60,516 nucleotides of DNA. Source: Acidimicrobiia bacterium. Lineage in GTDB: Bacteria > Actinomycetota > Acidimicrobiia > Acidimicrobiales > MedAcidi-G1. The notes beneath the pieces are model-generated. The model ran no database searches. It was not told the DNA's origin and saw only the letters and a list, made by a program, of their open reading frames with translations. Location: the NCBI GenBank assembly GCA_012959995.1, contig DUCC01000032.1, positions 1 through 60,516 on the forward strand, in the 5' to 3' direction. Below are positions 1-20,258 of the stretch, one piece after another; the stretch's first letter is position 1; every line of letters begins with the position of its first letter. Both the position numbers and the translations under genes were made by a program.

Positions 1-73
1 AAGCGACCACGAACCGCCAGAAGTGGCAAAAGAAACCACAGCGTTAATGGCTTGCTTTTGTAGATAACGGATG

Positions 74-109
74 TTATATTCAGGATAATCCTTCTTATCC
101 AGAATATAA
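74..109. other. dif-like Xer recombination site (candidate)
   Basis: Two 15-base arms (74-88 and 95-109) form an inverted repeat with one mismatch, separated by a 6-base spacer TCCTTC (89-94). The inner part, 78-105, has the 11-6-11 layout of bacterial dif sites: left arm ATTCAGGATAA, right arm TTATCCAGAAT, with the ATAA-N6-TTAT core that dif sites share. The stretch is AT-rich compared with the rest of the window and ends 14 bases before a Xer-type recombinase. It could instead be a phage-like core site or an operator for the recombinase gene. Geometry is seen directly; function is inferred. Confidence 0.55.
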
Positions 110-123
110 GGTGCTGTATTACA

Positions 124-1206
124 ATGAATGAAACAAATTTTCAAAAAATTGATCTTGGGCCGGACTTCGAGCGTTGGGTAGAGCGACTAAGTGGCGAAGG
201 TAAGTCAGAAGCAACGAAACGCGCATACATACAAGGCTTGAGGCGAACGGCCAAACTCTTGTCACCAAATGGTGGTTTCAACCCATGGGAGGTTGGCGAC
301 GACAAGGCGGTCCTAACTGAGAAATCGATTGACAGTCTCATGTCGTGGATGACGGCCAATAAGTTGAAACCACAAACTATGAGTACGACGTTAACCGCCC
401 TTAAACATTTTCTGGACTGGACTGCTGCCGAGGTAGAAGAAACGCTCCGTAGAGAGGACCCACAGCGCATCTACGAAGGAAAAATGTTTGAATGGCCTAT
501 TAAGTGGGAACAAGTGCGAAAGACCTACAAAAAAGCCCTCTCTGCGCCGGAGCGGGCGCCCTCGCATTTGCGCGATACTGAGGTTATTGATCTCTTTGCA
601 GCAGCTGGACGTTACCCACAAAAAGGAGACAAGGGGGAGCGAGTACGGTGGCCGGTTCGCGATCAAGCATTAATCATGCTTCTTATGTGGGGCGGGCTCC
701 GAGTGGCTGAAGTCTGTAGTCTCAAAGTGAGTTCAGTTTTGAGAAAAGATGAGAACGGACAGCGGATGCTGCGAATAATTGGCAAGGGGAAGAAGATGCG
801 CCTACTCCCCCTCTCCCCCACAGCAGAAGATTTTCTTGACCGGTATTTAGAGAAACGTGAAGACATCCCGGAAGTTGACCTCAAAAAGGACCCGCTTTTG
901 GTCGACATTAATGGTAAAGGTTTAACCGCAAACAAAGTGACCTATCTCATGCAATTGTTGTATAAAGATGCCAAAGTGTCCGCCCCAGAAGGCGCTTTGG
1001 TACATGGTCTACGACATACCGCAGCGATCCAGTTGATCGGCGAAGGAGTTTCCGCTAATGAAGTACAAAACTGGCTCGGCCACAGTTCCCTCGAAACTAC
1101 CGGTCGATACACCAAGGTAGTAGCCGTTGAGTTGGCCAAAGCAGCAAAAAAGTCGGGAATGAATAAAGTAATGAAAAATGCACCTATGAGTGAAGAGAAA
1201 CAATGA
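124..1206 (+). CDS. Xer-type tyrosine recombinase/integrase
   Basis: A site-specific recombinase that would cut and rejoin DNA through a tyrosine-phosphate intermediate. The N-terminal SAM-like core-binding domain spans about residues 10-115 and the catalytic domain about 150-335. The catalytic set is complete: Arg193 (GGLRVAEV), a hairpin Lys near 222 (GKGKKMR), His294-x-x-Arg297 (HGLRHT), His320 (LGHSS) and Tyr329 (GRYTK). At 360 residues it is longer than XerC/XerD (about 300) and close to the stand-alone XerS/XerH enzymes, which have their dif site next to the gene, as seems to be the case here. The gene is visibly richer in A/T than its neighbours, suggesting acquisition. It ends in an ATGA overlap with yqgE. 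A phage or island integrase is the alternative; no other mobile gene is visible. Confidence 0.85.
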   Translation: MNETNFQKIDLGPDFERWVERLSGEGKSEATKRAYIQGLRRTAKLLSPNGGFNPWEVGDDKAVLTEKSIDSLMSWMTANKLKPQTMSTTLTALKHFLDWTAAEVEETLRREDPQRIYEGKMFEWPIKWEQVRKTYKKALSAPERAPSHLRDTEVIDLFAAAGRYPQKGDKGERVRWPVRDQALIMLLMWGGLRVAEVCSLKVSSVLRKDENGQRMLRIIGKGKKMRLLPLSPTAEDFLDRYLEKREDIPEVDLKKDPLLVDINGKGLTANKVTYLMQLLYKDAKVSAPEGALVHGLRHTAAIQLIGEGVSANEVQNWLGHSSLETTGRYTKVVAVELAKAAKKSGMNKVMKNAPMSEEKQ

Positions 1207-1739
1207 CTTATACCAAGGGGAAACTTCTGGTGGCGGGGGCGGCTTTAGAGGATCGTCACTTCAACCGGACGGTCGTTTTTATGCTTGAACACGACCATCA
1301 AGGTGCTTTAGGTGTGGTGCTGAACGACCCCATGTTGGTGCATCCCGAGGAAATCATTAAAGACTGGGCCGACCAGTTCGAAGACCAAGCGGTTATCTAT
1401 CGGGGCGGCCCGGTAGCCACCGACGCCGTAATCGGTATTGCCCGTACTCAGGCAAGCAGCGAAAAGTCTTTGGTGGGCCGGGTGGAGATTATTGACCTGC
1501 ACCTCTCGCCCGCCGAACGTTCCGACGTTAAACAGATACGGGTTTTTGCCGGTTACGGAGGTTGGTCGGCCGGTCAACTTGAGGCCGAAATCGAAGAAGG
1601 CTCCTGGTTGGTTCTCGAAGCCCAAGAAGACGATATTTTTCACCCCGAGGCCGACACGCTGTGGACCAAAGTGCTCACCCGGCAGGGTGGCCTAGTGGGT
1701 CGCATGGCGCAAGCACCCGACGACCTCTCGCAGAACTAA
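1203..1739 (+). CDS. yqgE: YqgE/AlgH family protein (UPF0301)
   Basis: A conserved cytosolic protein of 178 residues, near the usual family length of about 185. The N-terminus carries the family pattern: GKLLVAGAAL, then HFNRTVVFMLEH and GALGVVLND, and later VIYRGGPV. The biochemical role of the family is not settled; AlgH was named for an effect on alginate regulation in Pseudomonas. Its ATG overlaps the stop of the upstream recombinase (ATGA), so the two are probably co-translated, an odd partnership. The 3' end overlaps the convergent L,D-transpeptidase gene by four bases. Confidence 0.9.
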   Translation: MTYTKGKLLVAGAALEDRHFNRTVVFMLEHDHQGALGVVLNDPMLVHPEEIIKDWADQFEDQAVIYRGGPVATDAVIGIARTQASSEKSLVGRVEIIDLHLSPAERSDVKQIRVFAGYGGWSAGQLEAEIEEGSWLVLEAQEDDIFHPEADTLWTKVLTRQGGLVGRMAQAPDDLSQN

Positions 1740-9700: not shown

Positions 9701-11366
9701 GTTCTTCGCGCATGGCGTCAAGCGGCGGGTTCGTGACTTGAGCAAAAAGTTGTTGAAAGTAATCGTAGAGCAGTCGCGACCGGCCGGAGAGTACGGCCAT
9801 CGGTGTGTCGGTGCCCATGGAGCCGATGGCTTCTTTGCTGTCTCGGGCCATGGGGGCCACCAACATCTTGAGTTGTTCGTGGGTGTAGCCGAACGTTAGT
9901 TGGCGCTGCTCTAAAGAGGCTGGGTCGATTATTTCACGCGTGGCCTCGGGCAGATCGTTGAGGCGAATCAAGTTTTCGTCTAGCCATTGGCGGTAGGGGT
10001 GCGTTTTGACGATCCCATTTTTGATTTCTTCGTCACGGATTATTCTTCCTTGTTCCATGTCAATGAGAAACATTTTTCCGGGCTCAAGGCGGCCTTTTTC
10101 GACGATTTGGTTGCTGGGTACGTCTACTACCCCAACTTCGCTGGCCATGATGACCAAGTCGTCTTCGGTAACCCAGTAGCGACTGGGGCGTAAACCATTG
10201 CGGTCCAATACTGCACCCATGACGGCGCCATCGGTGAAGGCAATAGAGGCTGGGCCGTCCCAGGGTTCCATCAAGGTGGCGTGAAACTCGTAGAAAGATT
10301 TTTGGTGGTCATCCATGGTGGCATGACGTTCCCACGGTTCGGGGATCATGATCATCATGGCTTCAGGCAGCGAATACCCGCCCATGGTTAAGAGTTCTAG
10401 GGCTTCGTCAAAACCGGCGGTGTCGCTGGCCCCTGGGGTACAGATGGGGAAGATGCGCTCCAGGTCGCCGGGCAGCAGGTCGGTGGCCAGTACGGCTTGG
10501 CGGGCTCGCATCCAGTTGCGGTTGCCTTGTACGGTGTTGATTTCGCCGTTGTGGGCCACCAGTCGGTAGGGGTGGGCTAGTGGCCATGAGGGGAAGGTAT
10601 TAGTAGAAAAACGTGAGTGCACTAGTGCTAAGGCACTCTCGGTGCGTGGGTCGGCTAAGTCAAGGAAGAACTCCGCTAGTTGAGGGGTGGTTAACATGCC
10701 TTTGTAAATCATGGTGCGGGCGCTTAGCGACGGGAAGTAAATGCCGGTGTAGGCCGCTGATGCCCCGGCCATGCCGGCGGCTGGTTGGCCGGCCGTGCTG
10801 ATCTTTATTTCGTGTTCCGACCGTTTGCGTAATAAGTAAGTGCGCCGGTCAAGCTCCAACCCCGCCAAAAGTTCTCCGTCGGGTCCGGCTGGAGCAGTCA
10901 GAAATACCTGTCGAAACATGGGCTGAGCTGCTTTGGCCGCCGGGCCGATCATGTGGTCAGCGATGGGTACCTCGCGCCAGCCCAAAATGGTTAGACCTTC
11001 CGCTTGTACCAACGATTCAAACTGGGCCACTGCCGCATCGGCCAACTCGAGGCTTTGTGGGAGAAAAGCAATCCCCGTGGCGTATTGGCCGGCGGTCGGC
11101 AAAGCAAAGTCAACGTCTGCTCGGTAAAGCCCATCCGGTACTTGCAACAGAAGCCCGGCTCCGTCGCCGGTATTGGTTTCTGCCCCTAATGCTCCCCGGT
11201 GCTGCATTTTACAAAGTGCGCCGATGCCCAATTGCACGATCTCATGGCTGGCCTGGCCGCGCAGATGGCAGACAAAGTTGACCCCACAAGCATCGTGTTC
11301 GAAAGCAGGGTTATAGAGCCCCTGGGCGGAGGGGAGGTCAAGGTTTTGTTGGCCGTGCTGAAAAAT
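6735..11366 (-). CDS. gltB: Glutamate synthase large (alpha) subunit, probable ATT start
   Basis: Makes glutamate from glutamine and 2-oxoglutarate. The order is an N-terminal Ntn-type glutaminase domain, a central domain, an FMN-binding synthase domain with a 3Fe-4S ligand set (C-x5-C-x4-C in [12 protein letters not shown]), and a C-terminal GXGXG beta-helix domain. No ATG, GTG or TTG start is available before the catalytic cysteine: the first such codon, GTG at 11237, would remove it. Reading in the same frame upstream gives [15 protein letters not shown], the expected start of the glutaminase domain. The frame closes at a TAG 15 bases beyond the ATT at 11366. That ATT has AGGAGA six bases ahead and gives 1543 residues with the nucleophile at Cys27 after a short propeptide. 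A sequencing frameshift is the alternative. Confidence 0.93.
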
Positions 11367-20222: not shown

Positions 20223-20258
20223 AAAAAGGAGCGGGGCTTTTGAGCCTCGCTCCTTTTT
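20223..20258 (+). terminator. Rho-independent terminator after hppA
   Basis: A 16-bp stem (20223-20238 with 20243-20258; one G-T pair) and a TTTG loop. The arm carries GGAGCGGGGCT and ends in TTTTT, starting 17 bases after the hppA stop. The flanking A and T runs make it usable from both strands, so it can also stop transcripts of the convergent M23 peptidase gene. Confidence 0.9.

Follow-up and report, generated by a model that had tools for sequence, protein, structure and literature searches.

A one-recombinase Xer/dif arrangement in a family of Acidimicrobiales and the probable local replacement of recombinase and site together

A family of Acidimicrobiales appears to use a single-recombinase module, in which a 28-nt dif-like site followed by a Xer protein of ~330-360 residues would stand in for XerC plus XerD, and the locus described here is probably a local replacement allele of both the recombinase and its site. 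Classical XerC and XerD act at dif sites in other bacteria. The single-recombinase arrangement is a well supported reading of the compared genomes, and a role of the module in dimer resolution is suggested by analogy. As described for XerS and XerH in the available excerpts of PMC5357621, one recombinase would bind both dif half-sites, exchange strands at the spacer borders and resolve dimers. In part of the population, the resident xer and most of the right arm of the resident dif would then have given way to a divergent recombinase with a dif-like site of its own. With the gene right beside its site, one exchanged segment of ~1.1 kb can alter the two at the same time, and a new enzyme may arrive with its site.

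The stretch analysed (the window, 60.5 kb) is the entire contig C32 of genome G000, a metagenome-type draft of 2.03 Mb in 37 contigs that is 96.7% complete. Its left flank (1-77, plus strand) is identical to positions 1171-1247 of contig C26, these being the two copies of the 77-nt run in the genome, and ends inside a truncated resident dif (57-77, plus strand) consisting of TTTGTAGATAA (57-67), CGGATG (68-73) and TTAT (74-77); the window lacks CATCTAT, with which the right arm continues in the resident site. An inverted repeat of 15-6-15 geometry (74-109, plus strand), the proposed recombination site of the window recombinase, has arms at 74-88 and 95-109 that are complementary at 14 of 15 positions (93%). 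A reading of this DNA from sequence alone had described the repeat as dif-like, and its 28-nt core bears this out: ATTCAGGATAA TCCTTC TTATCCAGAAT (78-105, plus strand) has an 11-6-11 layout, carries ATAA-N6-TTAT and is symmetric at 10 of 11 arm positions. The same reading correctly placed a 360-residue recombinase 14 nt after the repeat, as an intact open reading frame (124-1206, plus strand) that represents the alternative xer allele. The stop codon of this gene is overlapped by an algH/YqgE-like gene (DUF179; 1203-1739, plus strand), the conserved neighbor downstream of xer in the family. The right flank (1201-1289, plus strand) marks the right edge of the allele and is an 89-nt run identical to the first 89 nt of C26 in opposite orientation.

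ATAA-N6-TTAT occurs twice in the window, both times at the xer locus (28-mers from 57 and 78), against 0.20 occurrences expected under a first-order Markov null, or 0.005 with 10/11 symmetry. The motif at 64-77 overlaps the repeat and is what the window retains from the left side of the resident dif; the earlier reading had overlooked it, as well as the fact that the window is an entire contig whose first 77 nt recur on C26. The arms of the window core share 7 and 7 of 11 bases with the resident dif and 8-9 of 11 with sites beside Xer genes of another Acidimicrobiales family (f88), 4 of the 11 in each arm being the fixed ATAA/TTAT. Many copies of the site around mobile genes would, by the earlier reading, have spoken against a resolution system; instead, the site is single-copy, with no extra copies in the 2.03 Mb genome at ≤3 mismatches, and it is present in 1 of 397 genomes of the order, namely its own. 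One further 15-6-15 repeat of equal quality lies in the window at 20223. By eye, this is a G+C-rich hairpin (20223-20258) followed by a T run and situated after a membrane pyrophosphatase-like gene, likely a terminator.

The 360-residue protein has a Phage_integrase domain (PF00589, 2e-24) and a SAM-like N-terminal domain (PF02899, 2.5e-5). In keeping with the full catalytic set claimed earlier, R193, K221, H294, R297, H320 and Y329, which are presumably the catalytic positions of a tyrosine recombinase, are invariant in a 17-row alignment. With these R-K-H-R-H-Y residues and this two-domain make-up, the protein qualifies by its sequence as a Xer-type tyrosine recombinase. Its scores lie far under the curated cut-offs of the named Xer subgroups: 140.3 bits with the XerC model TIGR02224 (equivalog cut-off 335.15), 124 bits with the XerD model TIGR02225 (equivalog cut-off 329.6), 72.8 bits with the XerS model NF003462 (267) and 114.8 bits with the XerA model NF040815 (220). 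Four resident Xer proteins of the family likewise fall far under all four. A phmmer search places XerH (5jjv; 9.5e-8, 34.5 bits) after an archaeal Xer (3.3e-16). The AlphaFold model is of middling quality (pLDDT 70.6, with residues 326-360 below 50), and with this model VIA-align ranks XerA best (Z 15.8, rmsd 11.3, 271 aligned), with Cre at Z 15.4 (rmsd 17.6, 273 aligned) and XerH 5jk0 at Z 13.6 (rmsd 16.9, 269 aligned). In the tree, the Xers of its own family form the sister group of the window protein (100/99), which has a very long branch (1.8) and stands apart from f88. Eight family rows were left out of both trees, seven full-length by thinning and the cut L043, as was the short L046; the second tree was also built without L188 and without L039, L051, L052, L054 and L055, five rows that were long or doubtful.

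The layout of the locus is conserved across the family, whose named members are Acidimicrobiales genomes from metagenomes and single cells, including AG-410-I20, ANT-33 and MedAcidi-G1. A xer match at E≤1e-10 is found in 30 of 48 family genomes, one in each except G000. In 28 of 29 relatives' loci ATAA-N6-TTAT stands 22-102 nt upstream of xer, and the 29th locus is cut by a contig end. The family form of the site is GATAA-N6-TTATC, and the family Xers have ~330-360 residues. The algH gene is downstream of xer at all 29 of these loci, in four of them ~840-850 nt after it with another gene between. Within the genus, TTGTAGATAACGKATGTTATCATCTAT is found directly upstream of xer on C26 and in five other genomes; of the 8 genus genomes, 6 carry this resident dif exactly once and with 0 mismatches, and it is these 6 in which a xer match is present; controls have 0 matches to the site.

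A sample of 1.08 Mb from five family genomes contains GATAA-N6-TTATC 5 times, and 4 of these copies are at xer. The fifth, at ~314.3 kb of a G028 contig, was set aside: it is a short perfect palindrome before another gene and probably an operator. That operator-like example, and the position of the window repeat 14 nt before a start codon, where a repressor could act, would suit an explanation in which the inverted repeat serves xer as operator or terminator, with the recombinase having another role, such as inversion. Such an explanation is highly improbable given that all 28 relatives for which upstream sequence exists keep the geometry before xer, at 22-102 nt, and that it is rare elsewhere. 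No T run follows the repeat at 74-109, which argues against a terminator.

Symmetric sites before Xers of ~330-370 residues also occur in other actinobacterial lineages, at 3 of 5 loci in family f51 and, within 210 nt of the gene, 4 of 9 in f88; none was found at 8 loci of f90 or 4 of f108. These counts suggest a repeated origin or spread of one-recombinase modules. The individual loci with a symmetric ATAA-N6-TTAT upstream of a divergent Xer are L047, L048 and L049 (f51), L112, L117, L120 and L123 (f88), and L054, L055 and L056. In addition, a dif-xer-algH module of the type seen in genus g3 was observed on a small contig (G463:C13, 6729 bases; L115/L198) of an f97 genome that has a XerD-grade match. 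The xer of this contig groups with L031 at 100/100, and the module is probably binning contamination.

Three genes of G000 match PF00589: the window gene, a gene for a 350-residue protein at the start of C26, and a 398-residue integrase on C22 (L006:7600-8796). A tRNA suspected by eye beside the C22 integrase found no confirmation with ARAGORN, which reports 0 genes. The earlier reading had named a normal xerC and xerD elsewhere as a result that would speak against a lone recombinase. None of the three matches is a classical XerC or XerD, although a completeness of 96.7% leaves some room for a missing gene. Thus the proposed lone recombinase beside dif stands in so far as the layout is conserved in the family and no XerC/XerD was found among these matches. 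What fell was the proposal that the window site is the dif of the lineage: the resident dif is the conserved site on C26.

The wider order presents a different picture, in a survey made with the XerD model only. All 128 order genomes sampled have a match, 103 of them at E<1e-60, and 99 of these 103 have two or more matches. The 25 that miss E<1e-60 include three sampled family members, with E values of 1e-32 to 1e-35. The term classical rests here on the 1e-60 line, which was set by the analysis, because the curated XerD cut-off is strict: of the 128 order genomes 22 pass it, as do 4 of the 14 controls, and the sister-family proteins listed score about 260-345 bits against a cut-off of 329.6. 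The classical-type Xers of the sister families have ~300 residues and fall on a separate side of the tree (10 rows, 100/100).

Two versions of xer stand between identical flanks in the draft genome G000. On C26 the 350-residue Xer is preceded by the whole resident dif, TTTGTAGATAA CGGATG TTATCATCTAT, which is identical in the sister genome G003; the C26 protein shares 34% identity (120/350) with the window Xer. In G003 both flanks are contiguous around one xer, and G003 is ~88.6% identical to the window over 58 kb. In 100-nt bins against G003, the flanks (~1.3 kb upstream and 0.8 kb downstream) are 85-97% identical, save for a 74% bin at the outer edge of the alignment, whereas the C26 xer allele is mostly at 37-69%, with a first bin of 83%, and the window allele mostly at 16-51%. 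The simplest reading is that these are two alleles of one locus in one population, presumably from two strains. The new recombinase would act at the new site beside it, and may have taken over the function of the resident one.

An alternative is that no swap took place, and that both recombinases lie in one chromosome, by tandem or dispersed duplication, or that one contig is chimeric. The contigs do end as expected if the 77- and 89-nt stretches were repeats. The 77-nt overlap was considered as a de Bruijn word of the assembler, an idea dropped when other contig-end pairs in the assembly proved to overlap by 98 and 50 nt, so that it can be called bubble-like at most and its length alone does not identify the assembler's word. 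However, each common stretch lies at the very contig end of one partner, like a bubble between two haplotypes, all 29 other family genomes with a match at E≤1e-10 have one each, and chimerism would require two separate joins, each at a matching position. Duplication or chimerism is thus distinctly unlikely.

The left edge of the swapped segment would be the border of the resident dif spacer and right arm, plus TTAT, and the right edge the start of algH. Cleavage at dif is one possible cause of the left edge, a common TTAT another. The expected product of simple Xer exchange, one hybrid dif, is not seen in the window. The left edge also fits a selfish cassette that mimics dif, close to the mobile element that the earlier reading offered as its second option, in which the 360-residue gene landed on the resident dif-xer and disabled it in some cells: the resident dif is interrupted in the window at that border, which leaves neither the resident xer nor more than a small part of the right arm. 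The GC content of the allele (48.6%) is below that of algH (56.4%), though the C26 xer allele is also low (47.8%). Such a cassette is nonetheless rather unlikely, as its site is single-copy and confined to 1 of 397 order genomes, no cargo was found, and a scan of viral contigs for close relatives gave none. Moreover, the resident layout is kept, with the repeat 14 nt before the gene and the gene running into algH as on C26. The likelihoods given to the rival explanations are not exclusive of one another, and the cassette partly overlaps the preferred reading of a local replacement of recombinase and site.

Several comparisons across the family bear on local replacement elsewhere. The xer genes of L041 and L042 (genus g5) group with that of L044 (genus g6) at 100/100, whereas in the algH tree L041/L042 and L044 each group with their own genus (97/89 and 98/92), a conflict that supports, from tree topology, exchange of xer between genera. 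In a comparison of dif, xer and algH, made over the rows other than the window and L043, the dif spacer follows xer when algH is accounted for (partial r 0.48, reached by 0 of 2000 permutations) but not algH when xer is accounted for (partial r -0.05). For the whole 28-nt dif, the values are 0.51 for xer and 0.25 for algH. The outer dif arms follow xer (0.36) and algH (0.34) about equally, so the spacer alone separates them. At L039 and L026, the ends of algH (56 residues) are 94.6% identical and the xer genes 58%. Taken together, the tree conflict, the spacer and the L039/L026 contrast indicate that local replacement seems to recur, and it is suggested to have occurred more than once in the family, in one case by trees and in the others by divergence. 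Within genus g5, L041 (G026) and L042 (G024) are 99.7% identical in xer and 85.9% in algH, as if this xer had spread recently.

These comparisons also bear on the possibility that there was no replacement and that xer simply diverges very fast in this lineage. The window protein is, after all, still sister to the family's Xers, and the C26 allele is itself long-branched (0.84 vs 0.19 for the Xer of G003) yet keeps the resident dif and a first bin of 83%. On the other hand, two alleles that are 34% identical stand between identical flanks, and in 378 pairs that exclude G000 the mean identity of xer exceeds that of algH by 7.1 points, with some pairs opposite; most of those in which algH is more conserved involve L036, L037, L039, L041/L042 or L044. 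The g5/g6 conflict likewise points to exchange, and fast divergence is quite improbable.

The distribution of xer in draft assemblies is uneven. It is absent from 18 of 48 family genomes, vs 1 of 48 for recA (p=1.3e-5), and lies ≤5 kb from a contig end at 19 of 29 loci (7.8 expected), vs 14 of 30 (10.9 expected) for recA. Assembly breaks were considered as a sign of general hypervariability and set aside, since recA behaves similarly and the difference in contig-end positions is not significant (p=0.19). When algH was sought in 20 genomes (the 18 without a xer match, G043 with its cut xer, and G003), it was present in 5. G003 apart, the contig breaks off at the locus in all four of these, and three of the ends encode an ordinary resident-type xer, so those breaks are no evidence of alternative alleles.

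Searches for a donor of the window allele gave consistently negative results. Among the matches listed, and the window aside where it was included, none exceeds 45% identity, a value reached over only part of the protein, in 48 family genomes (E≤1e-10), 396 phylum genomes (E≤1e-20) or 397 order genomes (E≤1e-15). Single-sequence scans of genome contigs and viral contigs, suited to close relatives only, gave none, and the 20 loci that the family alignment matched in viral contigs are without exception distant (23-40% identity). Family f88 was suggested as donor by its sites, a likeness that is modest; this origin is unsupported because the protein tree places the window protein elsewhere, beside the Xers of its own family.

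A broader proposal is that dif-xer is polymorphic under diversifying selection, with recombinase and dif swapped as a pair within species and between genera because phages or other elements integrate by way of the resident Xer and dif. This is a tentative idea, doubtful on present evidence. A scan of viral contigs for TGTCAAGATAA-N6-TTATCA gave a raw count of 18 contigs, 5 of which are near-identical pieces of one phage. Of the 13 others, 12 have the match in open frames of ≥100 codons and one does not. In the phage contig L299 (IMG/VR 3300009412_001200) the site TGTCAAGATAA TGGACA TTATCA lies at 9830-9852 on the minus strand, outside frames of ≥100 codons. The five pieces (L299, L302, L303, L304 and L308) come from five metagenome datasets, and the end of L303 coincides with the site. 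Among the products encoded on the longest piece are a WhiB-like protein and a cytosine methylase; WhiB-like genes are typical of actinobacteria. The phage is a candidate for an element using an actinobacterial Xer/dif. The genus dif and the window site have no matches in the viral contigs.

Comparison of the position of the site with GC skew, which the sequence-only reading had proposed, yields mixed results. On a 352-kb contig of G028, skew is positive or near zero to ~130 kb and negative past ~150 kb, with dif at 161.6 kb, and the coding strand bias flips as well; the sign change is about 32 kb from dif on both the G028 and G024 contigs. In G003 the cumulative skew peaks in the dif bin and is irregular further out. 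In G025 the skew is weak and ~20-30 kb off dif, and G000 is mixed. On its C26 contig, skew is positive near dif only and negative over about 150 kb beyond, opposite in sign to what a simple terminus at dif would give in that orientation. In the region ~70-220 kb from the C26 start, it reaches -0.22 per 10 kb in the orientation leading to dif.

Resolution systems are regarded as conserved housekeeping. If the replacement is real, a living chromosome can exchange its site and enzyme as a unit, which opens tests of specificity changes in Xer systems, of the loss of XerCD and of a possible driving role of dif-integrating elements.

With XerCD as a guide, a survey was able to predict dif in all 66 Actinobacteria with a single chromosome that it covered (PMC3025954, in the excerpt at hand), and the available excerpts of the open-licence PMC literature describe neither a single-Xer system in Actinomycetota nor swapping of a dif-xer module. 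Dimer resolution by a single recombinase is described for streptococci and lactococci, some epsilonproteobacteria, Legionellales and archaea (excerpts of PMC5357621, PMC2731167 and PMC9765430). The sister-family XerC/XerD proteins belong to the same protein superfamily as the module recombinase but have ~300 residues and a separate place in the tree.

Among the closest known systems is XerS of Streptococcus and Lactococcus, a lone recombinase of 356 residues with its site immediately beside the gene (available text of PMC5357621). The Acidimicrobiales family shares the single recombinase and adjoining site. However, difSL is 31 bp long with an 11-bp central region, compared with a spacer of 6 nt here, and the window protein scores 72.8 bits against the XerS cut-off of 267. 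XerH of Helicobacter and Campylobacter is a lone recombinase of 354-362 residues with a site near the gene, and it too is a lone system within a class whose other species use the classical one (available text of PMC5357621 and PMC2731167). It belongs to another phylum, is a weak match to the window protein (9.5e-8) and, in those excerpts, comes with no description of an allele swap. XerL of Legionellales, compared by description from the accessible part of PMC9765430, is from another phylum again, and the arms of its site are perfect over 10 bp and show no homology to Xer-binding motifs already known. Like the Acidimicrobiales module, it is a single recombinase at a palindromic site, and in its case that site is used by a mobile element, LME-1 (PMC9765430).
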